Shown piece by piece: positions 8,319 to 29,792 of a DNA stretch of 36,341 bases. The stretch is from positions 1-36,341 of IMG/VR virus record IMGVR_UViG_3300030104_003674, one strand, 5' to 3'. Position numbers and translations under genes: made by a program. The DNA comes from a virus. Each line of letters opens with the position of its first letter. The stretch's first letter is position 1. Below the pieces are notes generated by a model. It was not told where the DNA came from and searched no databases. It saw only the letters and a program-made list of their open reading frames with translations.

Positions 8319-8503
8319 TGTGGATACCTATCATTTTAGTGTGTGCGAATAGCTTATGTTCGGGCATTGGTGGGCCAGTTTACCATGATTTAGCGACCTG
8401 TAACGACGCAATGATAGAAGTGGGTGCGCCCTATATTCGGGCGAAATACCCCCATTACGAAATTTTAGACATGCAATGCTTTAGCTGGGGGGTGAGTTCA
8501 TAA
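8318..8503 (+). CDS. 61-residue protein with a hydrophobic N-terminus
   Basis: Starts MWIPIILVCANSLCSGIGGP, a short hydrophobic stretch that may be a weak signal or membrane anchor, followed by VYHDLATCNDAMIEVGAPYI. Similar 60-residue proteins with spaced cysteines sit beside terminase genes in other phages, but I cannot name a family. Coupled to the terminase by TAATG and to the next gene by TAATG. Four cysteines suggest disulfides if exported. Confidence 0.55.
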   Translation: MWIPIILVCANSLCSGIGGPVYHDLATCNDAMIEVGAPYIRAKYPHYEILDMQCFSWGVSS

Positions 8504-8697
8504 TGATGAGACAAATGTATATTAGACGTTATTCCAATCCCAACCCAGGTAAGATGGAAGAGATTGCCGACGTTATAGAGGATGAAATTATGCCAAATAT
8601 GAAAGCTAAAAAAGCAAGAAAAACCAAGCGCAAAGATGGTCGTACTTCTTATGTTAGTAAAAAGAAAAATAGAACAAAAGGTAAAAGCTATGCCTAA
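8503..8697 (+). CDS. 64-residue highly basic protein
   Basis: The C-terminal half is almost entirely lysine, arginine, serine and threonine (KAKKARKTKRKDGRTSYV onward), so it probably binds DNA or RNA. The N-terminal half is MMRQMYIRRYSNPNPGKMEE. A GGGGGGTGAG ribosome site precedes the two adjacent ATG codons. It sits between terminase and portal and overlaps the portal start by eight bases. It could be a packaging or internal head protein; not recognised. Confidence 0.55.
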   Translation: MMRQMYIRRYSNPNPGKMEEIADVIEDEIMPNMKAKKARKTKRKDGRTSYVSKKKNRTKGKSYA

Positions 8698-10693
8698 AAT
8701 GGATGACATAAACTTTCGTTCTATTGTTCAAGGCGAAATACAAAGTGCAGTGAACTTTTACGAAAGTGAGTTTTCCGCTGACCGGACCGATATATTACAG
8801 TTTTACCTTGGAGAGCCTCTTGGCAATGAGGTCGAAAACCGTTCACAAGTTGTTGCTACTGAAGTTTCAGACACAATAGAATATATTATGCCGTCCTTAA
8901 TGAAGATGTTCGCGTCTTCCAAAGAGTTTGTGCGCTTTGAGCCACGCGGCCCCGAAGATGTTGAGGCTGCAAACCAAGCTACTGATCTTGTAAATTTTGC
9001 TATAAACAACGACAACCGTGGCTTTCGTGTTATTCACAACTGGTTTAAAGACGCGCTTTTGTTCAAGCAGGGCGCTGTCAAAATGTACTGGGAAGAGAAA
9101 GACACCACAGTCAACGAAAGCTATGAAGCCTTAACTGAAGACGAACTCACCTTGCTGGTAAGTGACCCAGCCATAGAAATCCTATCTCAAGAAGTGCAAG
9201 AGATAGGCATGGTTGACCCTGAGGGTAACGAGGTTCCAATGGAGCGCACCTACTCTGTTGAAGTTCGGCGCATAAAAAAGTCAGGCTCCGTTAAAATAGA
9301 CAACATACCGCCAGAAGAATTGATCTTCTCTCGTCGCGCCACGTCACTTGATGATTGCACCTTTATAGCCCATCGTGCGGCTGTAACTGTTGGTGAGTTA
9401 ATCGAGCAAGGTTATGACGAAGATATTGTTATGCGTTATGCTGGGTCAGACGATTTGGATGATGAAGTAGAACGACAAGCGCGATTTGAAGAAATTGAGT
9501 CTGGCGCTAAGTTTAACAGCCTTGACGCTTCGATGCGCGAGGTTATGGTTACTGAGGCTTATATTAAAGCTGATTATGATGGCGATGGTATTGCCGAGTT
9601 GCGCCGAGTGGTTGCGCTTGCCGATGGTTCCGAAATACTTGAGAATGAGCCGTTTGACCATGTGCCATTTGCACTGCTGTCACCTATTTTAATGCCACAC
9701 CGTATGGTGGGCAGAAGTGTTGCTGAAATGGTAACAGACCTACAGGTCATTAAGTCCACCATCATGCGACAAATGCTAGACAATTTATATTTAACGAACA
9801 ACAGCCGAGTTGGGGCTGTAGAAGGACAGGTTAATCTTGATGACTTACTTTCGTCACGCCCTGGTGGTATTGTTAGAATGCGTGCGCCAGGCATGGTTCA
9901 GCCTTTGGCGGTTCCTCAAATTGGACAGTCTGCGTTTGCGATGCTTGAATATGTGGATCAAGTGCGTGACCAGCGTACAGGTTTTTCTAAGGCGTCTATG
10001 GGTCTCGATCCAAGCACGCTTCAAAGCACTACGGCAAGTGCCGTCAATGCTACTATCCAAGGTGCGCAACTTAAAATTGAAATGATCGCCCGTGTCTTTG
10101 CTGAAACTGGTTGCCGTGATTTAGCGAAAGGCGTTTTACATTTGCTGCAAAAGCATCAGGACAGTGAACGTGTTGTGCGTATTCGTAACGAGTTTGTAGC
10201 CATAGACCCCCGTGCTTGGGATAACGAGTTTGACCTATCTATAGAGGTGGGCTTGGGCAATGGACGAGAAGACGAGAAGATGGGCATGTTGTTACAGGTC
10301 GCCGGAAAGCAAGAACAAATCTTGCAACAGTTTGGCCCTGTTAATCCAGTTGTTAAACCTTCACAGTATATCAATACACTTAAACGTATTATTGAAATGG
10401 CTGGTTTTACAGACACAGATCAATTCTTTTCTGGTGGTGAGCAAGTTGATCAGGCTCTTATGCAACAAGCCCAACAGCAAGGGCAAGGCGGTGCAGAACA
10501 AGCTAAGATGGCCGAGTTCCAAGCTGAAATGGAGCTTAAGAAGCAGAAGATGGAAGCAGAACTTGCGCTTGAGCGTGAGAAAATGCAGGCAGAGCTTGAG
10601 CTACGCAGATTTGAACTTGAGGCAGAGTTACAGCTTCGCCAACAGAAATTAGCCTTTGGTGGTAATGTTTCGGACAACCTACCAAGAGCATGA
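8690..10693 (+). CDS. Portal protein (P22-like)
   Basis: 667 residues from the ATG at 8690 that overlaps the previous stop; the upstream extension is out of place. The order SAVNFYESEFSADRTDILQFY, then EVSDTIEYIMPSLMKMFASS, then a long alpha/beta core with QSTTASAVNATIQGAQLKIE, is typical of P22-type portals of short-tailed phages. The C-terminal 70 residues are a glutamine- and glutamate-rich coiled coil (MAEFQAEMELKKQKMEAELA onward), the barrel helix region. The protein forms the 12-mer ring at the packaging vertex. AAAGG lies nine bases upstream of the start. Confidence 0.88.
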   Translation: MPKMDDINFRSIVQGEIQSAVNFYESEFSADRTDILQFYLGEPLGNEVENRSQVVATEVSDTIEYIMPSLMKMFASSKEFVRFEPRGPEDVEAANQATDLVNFAINNDNRGFRVIHNWFKDALLFKQGAVKMYWEEKDTTVNESYEALTEDELTLLVSDPAIEILSQEVQEIGMVDPEGNEVPMERTYSVEVRRIKKSGSVKIDNIPPEELIFSRRATSLDDCTFIAHRAAVTVGELIEQGYDEDIVMRYAGSDDLDDEVERQARFEEIESGAKFNSLDASMREVMVTEAYIKADYDGDGIAELRRVVALADGSEILENEPFDHVPFALLSPILMPHRMVGRSVAEMVTDLQVIKSTIMRQMLDNLYLTNNSRVGAVEGQVNLDDLLSSRPGGIVRMRAPGMVQPLAVPQIGQSAFAMLEYVDQVRDQRTGFSKASMGLDPSTLQSTTASAVNATIQGAQLKIEMIARVFAETGCRDLAKGVLHLLQKHQDSERVVRIRNEFVAIDPRAWDNEFDLSIEVGLGNGREDEKMGMLLQVAGKQEQILQQFGPVNPVVKPSQYINTLKRIIEMAGFTDTDQFFSGGEQVDQALMQQAQQQGQGGAEQAKMAEFQAEMELKKQKMEAELALEREKMQAELELRRFELEAELQLRQQKLAFGGNVSDNLPRA

Positions 10694-20411: not shown

Positions 20412-21938
20412 ATGGCAGAAAATAACCCTGATTTAGAAACTCTTTTACTTCTCCAGGCTCAACAAAAAGTAATAAATAATCAACAATCTGGCCCAGCTCT
20501 TAACCCTAACACTGGAATGCCAGAAGGTTATTTTATTGATCCCAGAACAGGTCAGGCGGTAAACAGAGATGCTCTGTCCAAAAAACCATCTAGTCTTCTT
20601 GAAAAAATAGCTTTGCCAGCAGGTCAAGGACAGTTCTTGGGTTATTCCGACGAGCTTTTTGGACTTTTAAACCAATTCAATCCATTTATGAAAGGCACAA
20701 AAGATCAGAAAAAACAATTTGGCACGGAATACGCTAGAGCAAGACAAGAAGCTACAAGAAGAGATGCTCCTGTTGTTTCTACAGCGTCTGAAATTGGTGG
20801 TGCTATACTTAGCCCTCTTGCTAAATTTGGACAGGCAAAAACTTTATTAGGGCAAGTTGCTAAATCTGTACCTCTTGGAGCAATAGGCGCTGGTATTTAT
20901 GGTTCTGGCACTGCTGAAGGTAATGTTGACCAACGGGTTGAGGAGGGATTGGATGCTGCACCATATGGAGCCGTTTTTGGTTTTATTTCTCCCGTCGTAG
21001 TTAATTCAATCGGAAAACTTGGAAATACTACTTATAAAACTTTATTTAATCGCTCTGTTAAAAAACCAACAGTTAAAAATCTATTAGACTTAAAAAACTT
21101 TGCTTATAATAAATTAGAAACGTCAGGTCATACCTTTTCTGGGAAAGAAATAGACAATCTGGCTTTGCGTATTATGAGCGTTATGGATGAAGTAGACTAT
21201 TCGCCAGAAGAAAAACATATTCAATCTGCAATTAATTTATTTAACCGTCAAACTGTTGGCGAAGGTAAAAAGCTTACACTTCCACAAGTCGATAAGCTAC
21301 GTCAGCGTTTGTACAGCATTTACCAAAAAGGGTTTGACGGTAGTAACCAGTATGATCCTAGAATTTATGAAATGATTGAGCAGGTTGACGATATGATCGC
21401 CTCTCACGGAGATGCTTCGACGTTGTATAAAGCAGCCAGAGAAGCGCATGGTCGGTATAAAAAATCTCAACTTATAGAGGACGCTTTTGAAAGAGCGGAA
21501 AGACAAACAGCAAGGTCAGGTTCTGGAGGAAATATACTTAATAATTACAAAGCAGCAGTGAATAGAATACTTAATAGCAAGCAAAAAAAATATTTTACTA
21601 AAGATGAAATTGAAGTCATGGACAAAATGGTTCGTGGTGATGTTGACCAACAAATGCTTAGATTAGCAGGTAAAGTTTCCCCAAGTGGTAATGGTTTAAT
21701 GCTTATGTTAAATGGTTTGGCTGTATTTCAAAACCCTGGATTTCTTGCCATGTCTCTTGGTGGTGCAGCCGCTAAAAAATCTGCTGAAAACATACAGAAA
21801 AAAGACATTTTAGACCTAGAAAACTACATAGCAACAGGCATTAAACCAAAAATAAAACGTAAATCAGGATTTGCTCCATTGGCCGCTTCCGCAGTTGCTA
21901 ATCAGTCAAAGGAAATCAATAAAAAGGAACGCTACTAA
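20412..21938 (+). CDS. Third internal virion protein
   Basis: 508 residues from MAENNPDLETLLLLQAQQKV; the longer frame overlaps the previous gene and the ATG at 20412 is preferred. Residues 130-190 are glycine/alanine-rich and hydrophobic (GAIGAGIYGSGTAEGNVDQR), a likely membrane-active segment. The rest is basic and helical, and a second hydrophobic patch near 435-460 (NGLAVFQNPGFLAMSLGGAA) precedes a lysine-rich tail. Such proteins enter the host envelope during DNA delivery. No enzyme motif visible. The stop overlaps the tail fibre start (TAATG). Confidence 0.55.
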   Translation: MAENNPDLETLLLLQAQQKVINNQQSGPALNPNTGMPEGYFIDPRTGQAVNRDALSKKPSSLLEKIALPAGQGQFLGYSDELFGLLNQFNPFMKGTKDQKKQFGTEYARARQEATRRDAPVVSTASEIGGAILSPLAKFGQAKTLLGQVAKSVPLGAIGAGIYGSGTAEGNVDQRVEEGLDAAPYGAVFGFISPVVVNSIGKLGNTTYKTLFNRSVKKPTVKNLLDLKNFAYNKLETSGHTFSGKEIDNLALRIMSVMDEVDYSPEEKHIQSAINLFNRQTVGEGKKLTLPQVDKLRQRLYSIYQKGFDGSNQYDPRIYEMIEQVDDMIASHGDASTLYKAAREAHGRYKKSQLIEDAFERAERQTARSGSGGNILNNYKAAVNRILNSKQKKYFTKDEIEVMDKMVRGDVDQQMLRLAGKVSPSGNGLMLMLNGLAVFQNPGFLAMSLGGAAAKKSAENIQKKDILDLENYIATGIKPKIKRKSGFAPLAASAVANQSKEINKKERY

Positions 21939-24900
21939 TGGCTAAAACTAAAATCTCAGAATACGACGCAACGGCTGGTAACAATACTGACATCGATAGC
22001 ATTAACATTGCTGAAGGTATGGCCCCTTCCAACGTCAATAATGCAATTAGAGAGCTTATGGCGCACCTAAAGGACATGGACGCTGGCACACAGGCATTAA
22101 CATCACCACAGCTAACCTCTGTGGATATAAACGGTGGCTCAATTGATGGTGCTGTGATCGGCGCAAACTCAGCGGCTGCAATAACTGGCACGACAATTAC
22201 TGGCACAAGCTTGGTTATTGGTGGCGCAAATATTAACGAGAACGACTTTGAGTCAATTGACGGTATTACCGCTGGTACAGTGGCAGCGTCTAAGGCAGTT
22301 ATCGTAGACACCAACAAAGATGTAACCGGGTTTAGGAATGTTACACTTACTGGTGAACTTGATGCAGGCTCACTAGACATTTCAGGAGACATTGATGTAG
22401 ACGGTACAACTAACCTTGATGTGGTAGATATTGATGGTGCTGTTGATATGGCAAGCACTCTTGCTGTCGGTGGTGTAGTCACTGCTAACGCTGGTGTGGT
22501 TGTTGACAACATTACAATTGATGGCACTCAAATAGATTTATCCTCTGGCGATTTAACAATCGATGTTGCAGGAGACATCATTTTAGACGCTGACGGTGGT
22601 GATGTTTACTTTAAAGACGCTGGCACAACAGTCTTTCAGTTTAAAAGTGGCTCAAATGCTGACATTTATAGCTTAGTTGCAGATAAAGATTTAAGAATTA
22701 TAGTTAACGATGGCGGTAGTAATGTTAATGCGTTAGTGTTTGATGCTTCAGAAGCAGGTGCGGCTACGTTTAATGATAAAATTACAGCCGCTGGTGTGGT
22801 TGTTGATAACATTACAATAGACGGTAACGATATTTCTACTACTAACACTAATGGTGCTTTAACTATAACACCAAATGGCACAGGTGATTTACAAGTAAAT
22901 TCTGACAAAATAAAAGTAAGAGCTACTGAAGGTGAATCTGCGGCTATAATGTTAGCGGCTGATGAACAAGATGACGCTGGAGATGCTTGGCAGATAATAG
23001 CAAACACTGATAACACCTTTGCTATTCAAAATGATATTAGTGGTGCATCAGATGTAACGCATTTTTCTATTACACCTAACGCAACAGTTGCTAATTCAAC
23101 AGCAGCTTTTATAGGCAACATAACTGTAGCTAACGCATTAACTTTCTCTGGAGATTTAATTTCATCAACATCAGGTACATCTAACTTTAGAGCAGGTGTC
23201 AACGCAGGTGCTAACATAGCCTCAGGTGGTAACTACAACGTAGCTGTAGGTGACGAAGCTGGTAATGATATAACAACAGGTGATTATAATACATTTGTAG
23301 GTTACGCAGCAGCAGACAAAATAAGCACAGGCGAACTTAATACAGGACTAGGAGCTTTCGCTTTATCTGCTGACACTTTAGGAAGTAGGTCTGTAGCTGT
23401 TGGTGCTTCTGCATTAGAAGCTCAAAACTTTACTACTGCCACAACTGCCTACAATACAGCCGTTGGTTATGGAGCTGGTCAAGCAGTAACCACAGGCATT
23501 AATAATGTTTTGATAGGTGGTCTAGCAGGTGATGCTTTAACTGACGCTGATAATAATGTAGCTATAGGTCAATTTGCTTTAAGTACAGACACTTTAGGAA
23601 GTAGGTCTGTTGCTATTGGTAGAGCAGCCTTAATAACACAAAATTTTACTACAGCTACTGATGCATATAACACAGCAGTTGGTTATGGTGCAGGTTATTC
23701 AGTAAGTACAGGTGTACAGAATACTATTATCGGTGGACTAGCAGGTGATGCTATGACTACCGCTAATGAAAATACTATTGTGGGTTATAATTCAGGTAGC
23801 GCACTCACAACAGGACTTCAGAATACTTTTCTAGGAGCTAAGACTGGTGATGCAAGCACAGTAGGAACTCGTAATACTGCGTTAGGTTATGATGCATTGT
23901 CGCTTGATACAAAAGGCAGTAGAAGCGTTGCTGTTGGGTCAAACACACTAGCTAATCAAAACTTTACTTCAACTACTAACGTTTACAACACTGGCGTGGG
24001 CTATGGAGCAGGACAAGAAATAACCACAGGTTCAGGTAATACCTTTATAGGTGGTCTCACTGGTGATGCTTTAACAGTAGGAAATGACAATGTAGCCTTG
24101 GGTTTAAATGCTTTAAGTGCAGACACAAATGGTAGTGGTAGTGTTGCTATAGGAAACGTAGCACTACAAGACCAAAACTTTACTTCAGCTACAAATGCTT
24201 ACAACACAGCTATAGGTAGGTCAGCAGGTAGAGATATTACAACAGGTCTTCAAAACACGGTTGTAGGTGCATTAGCTGGTGATGCTTTGACTGACTCAGA
24301 TTATAATATAGCTTTAGGTTACAACTCACTTAGTTCAGATACATTAGGAAGTAGGTCTACTGCTATAGGTTATTCAGCTTTACAAGCTCAAAACTTTACA
24401 AGTGCAACAGATAGTTACAATACAGCAATTGGATTTCATGCAGGCTATGCAGTAAGTACAGGAACAGCTAACACCTTTGTTGGTGGTTTGTCTGGTGATG
24501 CTACTACAACTGGCGCAAACAATACAGCAGTTGGAAAGTCGGCTTTAAGCTCAGTTACTACTGCTAGTAATAATACGGCTTTGGGAAATGATGCAGCATA
24601 TCTTTTAACTCTTGGAGCGGATAATGTAGCTGTAGGTAAAAATGCGTTAGAAGGTGATACTAAAGGTAGTAAAACTGTTGCTATAGGTAGGTCAGCTTTA
24701 GCTACTCAAAACTTTACCACAGCCACTGATACTTACAATACAGCAGTAGGATATTATGCAGGTAATGCATTAACTACAGGCACGCTTAATACTACTTTAG
24801 GTGGACTAGCAGGTGACCAAATAACTACAGGTGTTAGAAATATTTGTATTGGTTATGACGCAGGTAAAGCATTAACCACAGGTAGTAAAAATATTCTTAT

Positions 24901-25423
24901 AGGTGCTGAGTCTTCTATTAATTCAGGCAGTGTAGATAACGTTATAGTAATGGGTTATGACGTGGAATCTGTTGGTGCCAATAACTTTACTTTTGGAAAT
25001 GGTAATACAGATTCTAACATTGCATTCGGCGCAACAACAATAACAACTCCTTCAGACGTAAGACTTAAAGAAGATATTCAAGATGAAACGGTAGGCTTAG
25101 GTTTTATAAATGACCTTAGACCTGTTACATTCCAATGGAAAAAAGAAAAAGATATTCCATCTGATATGAAAGCGCACGTTGCTGACTCTGAGGTCAGGGC
25201 CATGAATGGAAAATATAATCATGGGTTCATAGCACAAGAAGTAAAAGAAGTTATAGACAATCATAACATGAAAGACGGTTTTGACATGTGGTCTGAAGAT
25301 GAGACTGATGGAAGACAACGCGTTGGGCCAGCCGCGCTAATGCCAATCATGGTTAAGGCGGTACAAGAACTATCAACCAAACTAGATGCAGCACTTGCGC
25401 GCATTGAAGAACTAGAAGGATAA
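21938..25423 (+). CDS. Tail fibre with beta-roll repeats and C-terminal S74 chaperone domain
   Basis: 1161 residues. Residues 1-60 form a virion-attachment region (ISEYDATAGNNTDIDSINIA then NNAIRELMAHLKDMDAGTQA). Residues 60-420 are GSI/VDN-rich beta repeats (VVVDNITIDGTQIDLSSGDL occurs in similar form twice). Residues 430-1020 are left-handed beta-roll repeats of the VAVGxxAL/NTAVGYGAG kind seen in trimeric adhesins. From residue 1039, SDVRLKEDIQ gives the S74 Ser1039-Lys1044 pair, then FIAQEVKEVI and a final coiled coil. S74 domains trimerise the fibre and cut themselves off. The fibre would recognise the host surface. Confidence 0.85.
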   Translation: MAKTKISEYDATAGNNTDIDSINIAEGMAPSNVNNAIRELMAHLKDMDAGTQALTSPQLTSVDINGGSIDGAVIGANSAAAITGTTITGTSLVIGGANINENDFESIDGITAGTVAASKAVIVDTNKDVTGFRNVTLTGELDAGSLDISGDIDVDGTTNLDVVDIDGAVDMASTLAVGGVVTANAGVVVDNITIDGTQIDLSSGDLTIDVAGDIILDADGGDVYFKDAGTTVFQFKSGSNADIYSLVADKDLRIIVNDGGSNVNALVFDASEAGAATFNDKITAAGVVVDNITIDGNDISTTNTNGALTITPNGTGDLQVNSDKIKVRATEGESAAIMLAADEQDDAGDAWQIIANTDNTFAIQNDISGASDVTHFSITPNATVANSTAAFIGNITVANALTFSGDLISSTSGTSNFRAGVNAGANIASGGNYNVAVGDEAGNDITTGDYNTFVGYAAADKISTGELNTGLGAFALSADTLGSRSVAVGASALEAQNFTTATTAYNTAVGYGAGQAVTTGINNVLIGGLAGDALTDADNNVAIGQFALSTDTLGSRSVAIGRAALITQNFTTATDAYNTAVGYGAGYSVSTGVQNTIIGGLAGDAMTTANENTIVGYNSGSALTTGLQNTFLGAKTGDASTVGTRNTALGYDALSLDTKGSRSVAVGSNTLANQNFTSTTNVYNTGVGYGAGQEITTGSGNTFIGGLTGDALTVGNDNVALGLNALSADTNGSGSVAIGNVALQDQNFTSATNAYNTAIGRSAGRDITTGLQNTVVGALAGDALTDSDYNIALGYNSLSSDTLGSRSTAIGYSALQAQNFTSATDSYNTAIGFHAGYAVSTGTANTFVGGLSGDATTTGANNTAVGKSALSSVTTASNNTALGNDAAYLLTLGADNVAVGKNALEGDTKGSKTVAIGRSALATQNFTTATDTYNTAVGYYAGNALTTGTLNTTLGGLAGDQITTGVRNICIGYDAGKALTTGSKNILIGAESSINSGSVDNVIVMGYDVESVGANNFTFGNGNTDSNIAFGATTITTPSDVRLKEDIQDETVGLGFINDLRPVTFQWKKEKDIPSDMKAHVADSEVRAMNGKYNHGFIAQEVKEVIDNHNMKDGFDMWSEDETDGRQRVGPAALMPIMVKAVQELSTKLDAALARIEELEG
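23423..24730 (+). repeat. Six-copy DNA and protein repeat in the tail fibre
   Basis: The phrase QNFT..T..YNTAVGYGAG (variants) begins at 23423, 23639, 23957, 24173, 24389 and 24707. Spacings are 216, 318, 216, 216 and 318 bases, that is 72 or 106 residues. The longer spacing equals the shorter plus one 34-residue module. The DNA is also nearly repeated, for example TTAGGAAGTAGGTCT occurs three times. Recent duplication or slippage is likely. Confidence 0.85.
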
Positions 25424-25722: not shown

Positions 25723-25968
25723 ATGACTGACAAAAAAACAAAAACCTCAGTTAATAAAACTAAAGTCAATATAAATGATAATGAATATTTTTTTGAAGAC
25801 ATGAGTGAAAAAGCAAAAATGCTACTTCAACATTGTCAAGATTTAGATAGAAAAATTTCTAACATCTCATTCCAGATGGATCAGATGGTGATCGGCAAAG
25901 AAGCTTTTGTTAATCTTTTAGCAAAAGAAGTCGAGACACCCCCTGAAGAAACAGCGAAAGTCAACTAA
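25723..25968 (+). CDS. DUF6447-like small protein
   Basis: 81 residues. The N-terminus is basic (KKTKTSVNKTKVNINDNEYF) and residues 28-65 are a helical pair (MSEKAKMLLQHCQDLDRKIS). The order short beta hairpin INDNEYFFEDMSEKAK plus helices is that of DUF6447, common near tail and lysis genes in marine phages. AAGGGAAC precedes the ATG. Function unknown. Coupled to the next gene by one base. Confidence 0.6.
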   Translation: MTDKKTKTSVNKTKVNINDNEYFFEDMSEKAKMLLQHCQDLDRKISNISFQMDQMVIGKEAFVNLLAKEVETPPEETAKVN

Positions 25969-26213
25969 TGTCAGACCTTAAAATTTCTACGGAGGAACTT
26001 GAAGCTATGCTAGATCGCTCTGCAAAAAGAGCATTGGCAAGCATTGGTCTGACTGATGAAAATGCTGCGAGAGATATCGGCGAAATGAGAGGTTTACTTG
26101 AAGCCTGGAGAGACACCCGAAAGTCAATCTGGAGTACCGTAACTCGCATTACAACTGGTGCAATTTTACTCTTCATCGCTGGAGCAGTTTGGATGCAGTT
26201 CGGTGGTAAATAA
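25968..26213 (+). CDS. DUF6127-like single-span membrane protein
   Basis: 81 residues. The soluble N-terminal part EELEAMLDRSAKRALASIGL, then RDIGEMRGLLEAWRDTRKSI, and a C-terminal transmembrane helix ITTGAILLFIAGAVWMQFGG match DUF6127. This family is often found near lysis genes in alphaproteobacterial phages and is sometimes taken for a holin-like or lysis accessory protein. Orientation would be N-in with a short C-terminal tail. Coupled by TAATG to the next gene. Confidence 0.65.
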   Translation: MSDLKISTEELEAMLDRSAKRALASIGLTDENAARDIGEMRGLLEAWRDTRKSIWSTVTRITTGAILLFIAGAVWMQFGGK

Positions 26214-26818
26214 TGAAAAAACTTATACTTGTAGCAGCCTGGGGCTTTTTAGGTCTGCTGTTTTTATTGGTGGTTGTGCCAATGGTTTTAGCGGAAGGTT
26301 GTGATAGTACAACAAACAGCAATTGCATTGAGACAAACAGCAACACAACTTCTACTGTAAATTCTAATTCAACGTCTGAAACAACAGTTAAGTCTCCACC
26401 GCCTAGCGCAATGGCTCCTAACATCAACACAAGTAACAGCGATCTCTGTACCGTTGGTGTAAGTGGTGCTGTGCAGACGCAAATCTTGGGTATCTCAGCA
26501 GGTAAGACTGTGCGAGACATGAATTGCGAAATGCTGAAAAACGCTAAAACACTGTACGATATGGGCATGCGCGTGGCAGCCGTATCAACTATGTGCCAAG
26601 ATTTACGAATTTGGAAGGCGATGGCAGCAAGCAACACATACTGCCCAATTAACGGAAAAATTGGCGAAGAAGCAAAGAAAGCTTGGGAAGATAACCCCCA
26701 TTTGGTGCCGGGCTATATTGCTGGAAAAAAAGAGCCTTGGAGTAATGATGACAAAAATACTGCAAAAGGCGCTGTTAGCGTCGGTGGTCTGTTGTTGGGG
26801 CTTCTCCTGTTACTCTGA
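26213..26818 (+). CDS. Exported protein of the 26-29 kb cassette
   Basis: 201 residues. An N-terminal hydrophobic helix (LILVAAWGFLGLLFLLVVVP) is followed by an asparagine/serine/threonine-rich low-complexity linker (residues 30-70). A conserved-looking domain follows (CTVGVSGAVQTQILGISAGK; MNCEMLKNAKTLYDMGMRVA; AVSTMCQDLRIWKAMAASNT), then a glycine-leucine C-terminal hydrophobic tail. Cysteines at intervals suggest disulfides outside the cytoplasm. The domain is one I associate with marine phages but whose role is not known. It overlaps the next gene by 71 bases. Confidence 0.65.
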   Translation: MKKLILVAAWGFLGLLFLLVVVPMVLAEGCDSTTNSNCIETNSNTTSTVNSNSTSETTVKSPPPSAMAPNINTSNSDLCTVGVSGAVQTQILGISAGKTVRDMNCEMLKNAKTLYDMGMRVAAVSTMCQDLRIWKAMAASNTYCPINGKIGEEAKKAWEDNPHLVPGYIAGKKEPWSNDDKNTAKGAVSVGGLLLGLLLLL

Positions 26819-27638
26819 CAATATCTTTGGCAATACAGAAAACGCTGCGTCCGAGGCTTACAACTGGACAATGAATAATTTACTGCCAGCCCAGAGTGGC
26901 CTCACGGTAGAGGGCGTGTTTCACCGATATACACTAACTAAAGACCCAACCAAAGATGCAACCGTGTCTATCACCAATAAGAAGGTGGGTAGTGACGAAT
27001 ATATCTACAATTATGTGGACGATTGGAACAAGATACCTGGTGGCACTAAAGTCGCTTATGATGCTGTACCAAGCTTGCTAGGCAACTTGTTTGGCGATGG
27101 TGAAATAAAAGTCAATGGTGATGGGTCGCTATCTGACGTTACAATATTGTATCACTTTAAATATGACCCGTGTGATAATCCTCTAACAAATCCAGAATGT
27201 CCTGGGTTTGACGATGCTATGCTAAAATACTTACTGGATAACAATCTGATTGACAGTGAGCCAGACGTGAATGATCCATTTTATGACGAATGGGTGCAGT
27301 TTCAGTTAGACCAAAAAGCTGAACAAGAAGAAGAACAAGAGTTATCGGAAGAAGAGCTAGAGGAAGAGCCAGAAGAAGAGATTAGCATAGAAGACATGCT
27401 TTCCGTTGCAACTGCTGCTGAACAAATATCCAACCCTGAACAACAAATAGCAATGATGGAACAACTAAGTGCTGCTGGTATGTTAGACGCTTATTCTAAA
27501 ATAACGATTGACGGTGGCGTTTACGAGGAAACAATCGTTCTGGATGGTGGTGAGATTAAAGACAATTACAGAGCTTTTCGAAATTTAAGTCAAGACAAAC
27601 TGCATGATAAAATCGTGCGATCGCAATTTAAGGAGTAA
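26748..27638 (+). CDS. Exported, acidic protein
   Basis: 296 residues from the ATG at 26748, which has GGAG five bases upstream; the open frame extends further 5' but that part lies inside the previous gene. The first 25 residues (MTKILQKALLASVVCCWGFS then CYSD) resemble a signal peptide and possibly a lipobox (GFSC). Residues 150-175 contain DPCDNPLTNPECPGFDDAML. Residues 205-235 are a run of glutamates. The C-terminus has beta segments (ITIDGGVYEETIVLDGGEIK). It may be a periplasmic or surface protein; no named family is certain. Confidence 0.6.
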   Translation: MTKILQKALLASVVCCWGFSCYSDNIFGNTENAASEAYNWTMNNLLPAQSGLTVEGVFHRYTLTKDPTKDATVSITNKKVGSDEYIYNYVDDWNKIPGGTKVAYDAVPSLLGNLFGDGEIKVNGDGSLSDVTILYHFKYDPCDNPLTNPECPGFDDAMLKYLLDNNLIDSEPDVNDPFYDEWVQFQLDQKAEQEEEQELSEEELEEEPEEEISIEDMLSVATAAEQISNPEQQIAMMEQLSAAGMLDAYSKITIDGGVYEETIVLDGGEIKDNYRAFRNLSQDKLHDKIVRSQFKE

Positions 27639-27640
27639 TT

Positions 27641-28135
27641 ATGTATTTCAAAACAATTATAGCTTTAGCACTTTCTGCCAGTGCAGCTTGGGCTGTAAAC
27701 TCACCGATTAACGGTTCGGTGCAGGCCAACTGTTCAATATATACTACTACACCAGGCGAGTATGGAAATCCTAGCCCGTGGAAATTAAGTACAACTGCTG
27801 CTGATGGTGGTGTGGAAGCAATCATACGTGTAGATATAGCTGCTGCTAACTACTACAAAACAAAGTTTACACACCCAAACAGTTTTAGCTCATCACCTAC
27901 CTTAAACGATGCCGTGGCATGGACTGGAAGCACAACAGTAAGTTCACACTCTGTATCAGGCATGTCAGCTTATGAAGCAGCTAAAGTCGTTGTAAACAAC
28001 ACAACAACATTTAACATGACGTTGGCTGGCTCAACTTGGTTTAAGGTAGCGTCAACAGCTAGTTATGGTTCAACGAAAGCATTACCAGCAGGCAATTACA
28101 CGGCAATGATCGTAGCGGAATGTATCGCCAAATAG
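27641..28135 (+). CDS. Exported beta-sandwich protein, pilin-subunit-like
   Basis: 164 residues with a clear signal peptide (MYFKTIIALALSASAAWA, cut after AWA). The mature part is all beta: NCSIYTTTPGEYGNPSPWKL, a hydrophobic middle with VEAIIRVDIAAANYYKTKFT, and a final strand LPAGNYTAMIVAECIAK. One cysteine near the N-terminus and one near the C-terminus could form a disulfide closing an immunoglobulin-like fold, as in fimbrial or spore-coat U subunits. AAGGAG lies six bases before the ATG. The next gene encodes a chaperone-like protein, which fits a subunit-chaperone pair, but this is inference. Confidence 0.6.
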   Translation: MYFKTIIALALSASAAWAVNSPINGSVQANCSIYTTTPGEYGNPSPWKLSTTAADGGVEAIIRVDIAAANYYKTKFTHPNSFSSSPTLNDAVAWTGSTTVSSHSVSGMSAYEAAKVVVNNTTTFNMTLAGSTWFKVASTASYGSTKALPAGNYTAMIVAECIAK

Positions 28136-28494
28136 CACTTATCTTTATGTTGCTGGGCTTTCAGGCTCAAGCACATGAGATGACACCTGCTTATCCAAAA
28201 TTTAAACAATCATATATCGACGGTGTGTCAGTTACAAAGATGTCGTTATTTAACAGACGTAGCGATGCTTCTTATTACGAGATTGGTGTGTTCAGCAAAG
28301 ATTGGAAAGAAGTTCCATTTGCATCAACGCAAAAGGTTATAAAAGTTAAGTACACTAAAAGATACCCGTTTGACGTTTATGTGAGAAACTCAGATTTAGA
28401 GAACGTGCAGTATATCTGTACTATTTCAAAAATCCTAAAAAGGGCAGAGCAAATAAGTCAAGTATCGTCTAGGATTTGTTCTAAAGTTAAATGA
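28120..28494 (+). CDS. Exported immunoglobulin-like protein, possible chaperone
   Basis: 124 residues with a short signal peptide (MYRQIALIFMLLGFQAQAHE, cut after QAQA). The mature part (KMSLFNRRSDASYYEIGVFS, then DWKEVPFASTQKVIKVKYT) runs like the N-terminal domain of PapD-type chaperones: strand, loop, strand, basic segment and closing strand DVYVRNSDLENVQYICTISK. Only one domain is present, where PapD has two. Two cysteines could form a disulfide. It overlaps the upstream subunit-like gene by 16 bases, implying coupled synthesis. Similarity is from pattern only. Confidence 0.5.
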   Translation: MYRQIALIFMLLGFQAQAHEMTPAYPKFKQSYIDGVSVTKMSLFNRRSDASYYEIGVFSKDWKEVPFASTQKVIKVKYTKRYPFDVYVRNSDLENVQYICTISKILKRAEQISQVSSRICSKVK

Positions 28495-28901
28495 AATTAT
28501 GGTTATTTATTATAATTGTTATGCTTGTGACAGGGTGTAGTATCGTGAGTGTATTTGCTGACAGCACAAGCAACTCACTAAGCCTATCCCTGCCCAACGG
28601 TGGATCAAACTATCAGTCAGATAGTTTTAGAGCTGGTGACTTGGATTGCAGTAATGCCATTGGTTCAGCGACCAACATTGAATTTGGTGTGACCAGCATT
28701 ATCCAGGGTGGTACGATTAGCAGCGACCGAGTTGGCGATATTGGCGTTTACAGCCGTATCACAATCCCATTGGGCGCCAGAACAAAGAACCGCATAGATT
28801 GCAACAGATTGTATGAACTTGAGCTTCAAAAGAAGCAACTCGAAGTGCTGAAATTACAGCAAGAAATAAACCAGTTGAAAAACTTGGCGTTTGAGAATTG
28901 A
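28491..28901 (+). CDS. Exported protein or lipoprotein with coiled-coil tail
   Basis: 136 residues. The N-terminus MKLWLFIIIVMLVTGCSIVS holds a lipobox (VTGC), or alternatively cleavage after VFA. The middle is beta-rich (SLSLSLPNGGSNYQSDSFRA; then GVYSRITIPLGARTKNR) with a pair of cysteines. The last 35 residues are a coiled coil (LYELELQKKQLEVLKLQQEI). This layout occurs in marine phage genomes next to the other exported genes. It starts on an ATGA overlap. Role unknown; it may anchor or multimerise the exported set. Confidence 0.6.
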   Translation: MKLWLFIIIVMLVTGCSIVSVFADSTSNSLSLSLPNGGSNYQSDSFRAGDLDCSNAIGSATNIEFGVTSIIQGGTISSDRVGDIGVYSRITIPLGARTKNRIDCNRLYELELQKKQLEVLKLQQEINQLKNLAFEN

Positions 28902-28908
28902 GGTAACG

Positions 28909-29451
28909 ATGGCGGAGATCGAGTACAAAGGTATCAAGCTAGGTGGATCAAAACTCATTTTACTTATACCTCTTTGCGGTACACTTATTGGTGGCTTGTG
29001 GGGCGGCTTTGAGGTTTATCAGCGTTACCTTCAGATGGAAAAAAAGATACAGAGCTACACAGCGCCAAATCTCACTGGCATAAATCAATCTCTTGCTGTG
29101 CTGGAAACAGACAGTGAAGCCTTAAAACAGGTCGTCAGAGAGCAGGTCAACGCGCTAAAAGAAATCGTCAGCCAACTGCAAACAGATGTTTACGATATTA
29201 AGTTAGAGTTAAAGCAAGACTTAACCAAGATGTCTGACCGGATTGAAGTGCAGCTTAATAAGCAAGCTGACAACTTAGATCAACAAGAGACACGCAATCG
29301 AGATAACGTGAAAATTGTACGCGGTATTATATCTGCCTTTGAAATTAGAATAGACGCCAAGGTAGACCGATTAGATCAAAAGATTGATACATTAGAAGCA
29401 GATCTTGATGATAAAATCAGGATGGCTTTGAGCAACCCCCTCAACAACTAG
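28909..29451 (+). CDS. Membrane-anchored coiled-coil protein
   Basis: 180 residues from the ATG at 28909 (GAGGT upstream). Residues 13-35 form a transmembrane helix (LILLIPLCGTLIGGLWGGFE). Residues 50-175 are one long coiled coil (LKQVVREQVNALKEIVSQLQ; RLDQKIDTLEADLDDKIRMA). Such proteins can span the periplasm, so a spanin-like or virion role is possible. It is the last gene before the lysis set and the last of the exported run. Confidence 0.6.
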   Translation: MAEIEYKGIKLGGSKLILLIPLCGTLIGGLWGGFEVYQRYLQMEKKIQSYTAPNLTGINQSLAVLETDSEALKQVVREQVNALKEIVSQLQTDVYDIKLELKQDLTKMSDRIEVQLNKQADNLDQQETRNRDNVKIVRGIISAFEIRIDAKVDRLDQKIDTLEADLDDKIRMALSNPLNN

Positions 29452-29460
29452 GATATTACA

Positions 29461-29703
29461 ATGATTACACCAGAACGACTTTCTGCGTGGCGAATTGTGC
29501 CGCGTTTACTGATCCTTTGTTACATGCTTGTTTTTTATCAGACAACGCAGTGGTTTATGGCAATGCCCGACCCGAATAATGCCCAGGCTGGATTTGTGTC
29601 TGTCATCGTTGGTGCAGGTGCAGCGTGGTTCGGGATTTACGTTAACGGCACACGTTCAAGTGTCAGTGTCACTCAGAAAACCGAAGTAAAGGACAAAGTA
29701 TGA
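29461..29703 (+). CDS. Two-span small membrane protein, holin candidate
   Basis: 80 residues. Hydrophobic helices at about 15-33 (LLILCYMLVFYQTTQWFMAM) and 42-60 (AGFVSVIVGAGAAWFGIYVN), with a charged, serine-rich tail (SVSVTQKTEVKDKV). Small two-helix proteins beside an endolysin are often holins (class II). A second, larger membrane protein follows after the mini-protein, so which one forms the lesion is open. Its stop overlaps the start of the cysteine-repeat peptide. Confidence 0.6.
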   Translation: MITPERLSAWRIVPRLLILCYMLVFYQTTQWFMAMPDPNNAQAGFVSVIVGAGAAWFGIYVNGTRSSVSVTQKTEVKDKV

Positions 29704-29792
29704 TGACCTGTAAATGCAGAGAGAAATGTATCTGTCAGGATACCTGTGCGTGTGTTGACCAATGTATCTGCAAGCGAAGAAAGGGTAAGTGA
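29700..29792 (+). CDS. 30-residue cysteine-repeat mini-protein (CxC repeated every six residues)
   Basis: Short reading frame read directly from the sequence: after MMT come CKCREK, CICQDT, CACVDQ and CIC, then KRRKGK. Eight of 30 residues are cysteine, arranged as four CxC pairs exactly six residues apart. It overlaps the holin candidate's stop (ATGA) and its own TGA overlaps the ATG of the next gene (TGATG), so it is coupled on both sides. The regular CxC pattern suggests metal binding, as in metallothionein-like peptides; a disulfide-rich toxin is less likely because there is no export signal. Expression is not proven by sequence. Confidence 0.6.
   Translation: MMTCKCREKCICQDTCACVDQCICKRRKGK

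Follow-up and report, generated by a model that had tools for sequence, protein, structure and literature searches.

Among described systems, those closest to the locus considered here are the chaperone-usher (CU) pili (PapD, FimC and Caf1M, with FimA- and PapG-type subunits). Like them, a six-gene cassette in IMG/VR virus record IMGVR_UViG_3300030104_003674 (g1 to g6, positions 26213 to 29451) has neighbouring genes for a subunit-like and a chaperone-like protein, both of predicted immunoglobulin (Ig)-like fold; the subunit-like protein has an alternating N-terminal strand with the fimbrial motif and in its model stops at the last strand, and the model of the chaperone-like protein has a rightly placed G1 strand. 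Unlike them, the cassette has a one-domain chaperone-like protein, no usher, no Pfam-level similarity and a putatively obligate third partner (g5), and it is borne by a phage. The whole record, a virus sequence of 36,341 bases that is possibly incomplete, is hereafter called the window. In the archaic CU pili, the N-terminal donor strand of subunits such as CsuA/B is short and its residues alternate, and the chaperones rely on domain 2 for their carboxylate anchor (PMC4654587). The g3 protein shares the short alternating strand with this group (CsuC-CsuA/B, the SCPU family), and chains of the archaic CU structure 6fqa occur in the fold lists of both g4 and g3; however, PF05229 is unmatched in the window, g4 has no domain 2 and there is no usher. 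A third point of comparison is provided by the curli/type VIII secretion clusters of pelagiphages, for which aggregation ("sibling capture") and superinfection defence have been proposed (PMC7029224, PMC9599517). These are likewise multi-gene clusters of marine phages, there for an exported adhesive structure, and moved between phage families (PMC7029224, PMC9599517), whereas the cassette is made of other protein families and has no identified outer-membrane pore. No curli family (CsgG-, CsgF- or CsgA-like) was found among the Pfam and PHROG matches of the six genes, and a search of the literature found no paper that dealt with usher-less systems or with pilin/chaperone pairs in phages. In my best reading, which has slightly better than an even chance of being right, g1 to g6 are expressed late and form an assembly in the envelope of the infected cell, periplasmic or at the surface, that needs no usher and is put together by donor-strand complementation.

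The six genes are inherited together, far beyond chance, and form an accessory cassette. IMG/VR was searched with g3, g4, g5 and g1, which gave about 200 loci, and all open reading frames (ORFs) there were then searched with profiles; the best 80 matches of each scan were kept, so that cassette and locus counts are lower bounds. Complete six-gene sets were present in at least 187 IMG/VR loci, corresponding to at least 105 distinct DNA cassettes with a median pairwise identity of 38–58%. Order and strand were identical in 105 of the 105 distinct complete cassettes. Contig ends account for 54 of the 59 partial loci, the other five being a Photobacterium locus and four with only g1, g6 and sometimes g2. 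Pairwise gene distances correlate across the cassette at 0.70–0.91, g6 being the loosest member. All this holds for phage backgrounds that are very different from one another. A nucleotide search of the cassette against phage genomes gave no match.

All six ORFs of the original prediction, which described six consecutive exported or anchored products with tight or overlapping genes, were confirmed together with their overlaps. An N-terminal hydrophobic signal or anchor is found in each of g1 to g6 and, by the same crude test, in only 2 of the 36 other main ORFs of the window. The first gene (26213–26818, plus strand, as are the other five) encodes an exported, Cys-rich, helical-type protein that starts with a signal peptide and has a hydrophobic tail at its C-terminus, and belongs to phrog_20531 (function unknown). 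The preferred start of g2 is the ATG at 26748, within the 3′ end of g1; the product (about 26748–27638) is exported and modular, with a beta-rich head, a CPG[YF] motif with two Cys, an acidic linker and a conserved C-terminal part of about 68 residues. After a gap of 2 bases comes g3 (27641–28135), for a secreted pilin-subunit-like protein; it overlaps by 16 bases (28120–28135, plus strand) with g4 (28120–28494), for a secreted protein made of one Ig-like domain, to which domain 1 of PapD-type chaperones ranks nearest. The latter overlaps by 4 bases with g5 (28491–28901, phrog_37374), whose secreted product has an N-terminal SLSLSLP strand, two conserved Cys and a C-terminal coiled coil ending in FEN. 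Seven bases further, g6 (28909–29451; a TTG start at 28891 is less likely) encodes an N-terminal membrane anchor and a long coiled coil ending in NPL. The mature parts of g1 to g5 have conserved cysteines, even in number, which supports export; together, signals and cysteines strongly indicate, as far as sequence can, that all six products pass through Sec and that those of g1 to g5 carry disulfides. The description of g5 as lipoprotein-like was abandoned: many homologues have no lipobox and instead a plain signal of the FA|DS type, and the protein is therefore better named a periplasmic or surface protein. There is no obvious lipobox in g2 either. Pfam and NCBIfam scans of the window and of the cellular homologues gave no credible family for the cassette proteins, PDB sequence searches with g1 to g5 alignments gave nothing significant, and PADLOC returned only weak coiled-coil matches for g6.

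The chaperone-like nature of g4 is supported by its predicted structure. The AlphaFold2 model is an Ig-like domain (pLDDT, the predicted local distance difference test, 78). Foldseek alone returned only generic Ig domains; on re-ranking of its matches by VIA, rows 1–23 were all CU chaperones or chaperone complexes (FimC, SfaE, Caf1M, SafB, DraB and PapD), with Z scores of 6.5–7.5. The VIA alignments span 90–96 residues and match positions 22–124 of the model to about 5–114 of FimC, the G1 strand included. The protein is 124 residues long and, like nearly all its homologues, stops at the G1 strand, where PapD would start domain 2. The C-terminus of distant members is RLYWP or LLYPK, a kind of ending that chaperones have at the domain hinge. 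As to the carboxylate anchor (Arg8 and Lys112 in PapD), basic residues stand at 122 and usually also at 124, where the G1 strand ends, and the A1 position is occupied by Tyr25, with no conserved Arg. Two cysteines invariant in the alignment, C100 and C120, face each other in the F1-G1 hairpin of the model; a disulfide between them would recall FGL chaperones.

Similarly, predicted structure and an N-terminal motif support a subunit-like nature for g3. The AlphaFold2 model, built from 48 sequences (pLDDT 88), is a sandwich that runs from residue 31 to the last strand (158–163), where the fold stops, residues 19–30 being loose. The top PDB match by Foldseek is the pilin domain of PapG bound to PapD (E 1.7e-3, probability 1.00), and FimF, CfaB, FimG and CsuA/B appear further down the list. 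In the mature N-terminus (VNSPINGSVQANC), I/V23, G25, V/I27, C31 and I/V33 are invariant or nearly so, with strict hydrophobic alternation at 23, 25 and 27. This is the fimbrial motif hydrophobic-x-G-x-hydrophobic-x(3,4)-C; the same pattern is seen in FimF (IRGYVRDNGCSV), where the Cys comes one residue later than in g3. The motif is present in 48/48 g3 sequences, 9/13 E. coli fimbrial subunits and 1/1776 background ORFs, and in its exact form in 1 of 11 distant g3-like proteins (Mesorhizobium). The Cys pairing of g3 must differ from that of CU subunits, as only C31 and C161 are available.

Several observations weigh against a chaperone and subunit pair. All VIA Z scores of g4 are below 8 and thus not decisive, and g4 has neither a domain 2 nor a clear Arg8. 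For g3, the folds that VIA places nearest are Ig domains of MSCRAMM and integrin proteins and not those of pilins, and its Z scores are not decisive either. The fimbrial motif was defined after inspection, and the 48 g3 sequences are one family. Neither g3 nor g4 matched Pfam, g4 did not match PF00345, and once signal peptides were removed no profile similarity of g3 or g4 to E. coli pilins or chaperones was significant (E 0.046 in hhalign for g4 against the chaperones). A comparison of the g3 family with pilins by hhalign, at 75% with signal peptides left in, was discarded as misleading, since the similarity vanished on signal removal. One possibility is that g3 and g4 are ordinary small secreted Ig-like proteins with no donor-strand relation, their pilin and chaperone look being convergence on a common fold. 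The lack of any sequence-level match to chaperone or pilin families and the middling Z scores would fit this explanation, which I nonetheless regard as unlikely: CU chaperones or their complexes fill all the top VIA rows of g4, above generic Ig domains, the motif is universal in g3, and the two genes recur as neighbours in bacteria and in distant phages. What had been suggested from the first inspection, an exported assembly like a minimal pilin/chaperone system, thus stands as to the fold neighbours of g4 and the motif and Foldseek matches of g3, and does not extend to a standard chaperone, g4 having one domain, or to sequence-level similarity. The statement that no usher gene is present and that this is not a standard CU locus holds: PF00577, with a positive E. 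coli control, gave no match in nine records, namely this one and eight others that carry a homologous module, in a search that left out the chromosomes of the plasmid hosts.

The cassette joins two modules, {g1,g2,g6} and {g3,g4,g5}, each of which is also found apart. Searches of phage records by tblastn gave no match with g3 or g4, while g1 and g5 retrieved the two sub-modules. In the cultured Pelagibacter phages HTVC202P and Mosig and in the Roseobacter phage CRP-207, genes for an exported protein and for a coiled coil like that of g6 come after a relative of g1, and g3 to g5 are not detectable in these loci. Four IMG/VR loci contain only g1, a long g2-type protein and g6. The g2 profile matches the long g2-type proteins in the C-terminal 68 residues (hhalign E 1e-13) and in the CPGY motif (E 1e-8); these relatives (523–883 residues; loci L209, L211, L230 and L235) differ in their N-terminal heads and in how many C..LY...CPGYA.AY repeats precede the linker, which is acidic or rich in proline. 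Conversely, relatives of g3-g4-g5 occur without g1, g2 or g6 in T5-like Vibrio phages (Bennett gp148-150), in K251 g3, in the T4-like 1.081.O, in D479, where they adjoin rIIA/rIIB, and in 2.275.O. Bacterial copies of g3-g4-g5 are found on a contig of Photobacterium chitinilyticum and on plasmids of Vibrio nigripulchritudo, Mesorhizobium and Vibrio sp. THAF190c. Profile comparison of the phage and distant groups, with signal peptides removed, gave E values of 1e-24 for g5, 5e-10 for g4 and 7e-6 for g3. The g5 gene accompanies g3 and g4 throughout, and an L-x-L-x-L strand at its mature N-terminus is invariant in the marine members. The genes are thus not scattered independently among related phages; they separate only in distant phages and bacteria, and then as two halves. 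In the Photobacterium and V. nigripulchritudo loci, g3-g4-g5 is accompanied by an EAL-domain gene and by another subunit-like gene, which is longer, hinting, on gene content, that the cellular version may be under cyclic di-GMP control. The EAL-domain gene lies directly 3′ of the module (8381–9148 in the Photobacterium locus, L174; 6371–7093 in that of V. nigripulchritudo, L252).

From its PHROG matches (terminase, portal, major head protein, integrase and repressor, besides primase/helicase), the window looks like a marine temperate tailed phage; no phage record searched has a head protein more than 53% identical to its own. Lysogenic conversion, one of the roles first proposed, was not supported: an integrase is present, but the cassette has no promoter or terminator signal of its own (counts around it were the same as in shuffles, with nothing to set it apart), and g3-g4-g5 is also borne by T4- and T5-like phages, which are presumably lytic.

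In the window, the cassette lies 3′ of the tail fibre gene and directly 5′ of genes for a holin-like protein with three transmembrane segments (TM) and a lysozyme-like protein. This setting bears on the main rival explanation, that the cassette helps lysis by disrupting the outer membrane, as a spanin-like substitute in which g6 would resemble an i-spanin and g1 and g5 would be envelope partners. Like phage spanins (Rz/Rz1, u-spanin), the cassette has a membrane-anchored periplasmic coiled coil near holin and endolysin genes; g6 fits the inner-membrane part, its TM and coiled coil being long enough to cross the periplasm, no Rz/Rz1 pair was recognised, and in Mosig a holin-like gene adjoins the g1 relative. 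A holin or lysozyme relative was found within 4 kb in 28 of the 105 distinct cassettes, and none near 26 others whose flanks are long enough, a count made with five seed families only, so that some lysis genes were perhaps missed. The lipid anchor that g5 would need as outer-membrane lipoprotein is not conserved, {g3,g4,g5} occurs in bacterial chromosomal and plasmid loci without phage lysis genes, and lysis needs neither a subunit/chaperone pair nor variable g2 heads. Unlike spanins, moreover, the cassette comprises six genes, includes soluble disulfide proteins, is often away from lysis genes and has a core module in bacteria. I consider a lysis role improbable. The location between tail fibre and lysis genes, given at first as that of the cassette, is correct for the window and does not hold generally; it was rejected as a defining feature because flanking genes vary among cassettes, neighbours elsewhere including genes for a DnaB-like helicase, a carbamoyltransferase, the major head protein, an exonuclease and an esterase.

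The same surroundings might suggest that the products are virion parts, of tail or decoration, matured via the periplasm: the cassette comes after the tail fibre, and in K251 g3 the module lies between head and head-tail adaptor genes. Such an origin is very improbable, as virion assembly in the cytoplasm is ill-suited to Sec signals and disulfides, and homologues adjoin rIIA/rIIB in D479 and also occur outside phages.

Other features of the neighbourhood deserve mention. The tail fibre gene (21938–25423, plus strand) has many repeat units of the N-T-A-[VI]-G-Y-G-A-G type and, by resemblance, a candidate S74 self-cleaving chaperone domain at its C-terminus. Immediately before the cassette, 25968–26213 (plus strand) encodes a DUF6127 protein (E 1.8e-19) with a C-terminal TM; a close relative is also 5′ of the cassette in L055 and L001, and other genes occupy this place elsewhere. 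Small porin-like exported proteins (100–153 residues, with ends like VGVGFNF) are encoded directly 5′ of g1 in several cassettes (L108 3262–3597, L199 5530–5877, L207 4891–5352, L225 1556–1864); absent from the window, they are a possible outer-membrane partner. On the lysis side, a 30-residue ORF (29700–29792, plus strand) has 8 Cys with CxC/CxxxC spacing (MMTCKCREKCICQDTCACVDQCICKRRKGK), overlaps the 3′ end of the 29461–29703 gene and abuts the holin-like gene.

The donor-strand assembly that I favour can be pictured in four steps; what I infer in it is the exchange of strands, the parts played by g1, g2, g5 and g6, and what the assembly is for. The products of g1 to g6 would pass through Sec, and those of g1 to g5 would fold with disulfides in the oxidising periplasm. 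The g3 protein would be a subunit with an incomplete Ig-like fold, to which g4, a half-sized PapD-like protein, would lend its G1 strand until replaced by another donor. This donor might be the N-terminal strand of g3 itself (V19-x-S21-x-I23-x-G25-x-V27) or the SLSLSL strand of g5, so that either a short fibre or a capped subunit would result; g5 would be the anchor or an obligate partner. Finally, the g6 coiled coil, with g1 and g2, may form a membrane-anchored mount spanning the periplasm, g2 being the head-bearing protein with a variable N-terminal head. Infected cells would end up with an altered surface or outer membrane, and the assembly would not be part of the virion. Its likeliest purpose would be adhesion or aggregation, or else exclusion of other phages, both kinds of role having been proposed for pelagiphage curli (PMC7029224, PMC9599517). 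A bolder version, put forward tentatively and rather doubtful, is that of a widespread usher-independent donor-strand system with a half-sized chaperone, a subunit of minimal length and g5 in place of the usher as anchor or exporter; its core module would be cellular (Photobacterium, Vibrio, Mesorhizobium) and, when borne by phages, would be joined to a second export module and remodel the surface of the infected cell.

The cassette thus points to an undescribed cell-envelope device. As the small {g3,g4,g5} module occurs in Vibrio phages with cultured hosts, it is directly testable. If the favoured reading is true, donor-strand assembly would be possible without an usher or a two-domain chaperone, and the PHROGs unknowns phrog_20531, 25895 and 37374 and, weakly, 25455 would receive named function hypotheses. 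An abundant group of marine phages would, moreover, build a dedicated envelope structure during infection, and this would be a second phage-borne fibre system, unrelated to the reported phage curli clusters.

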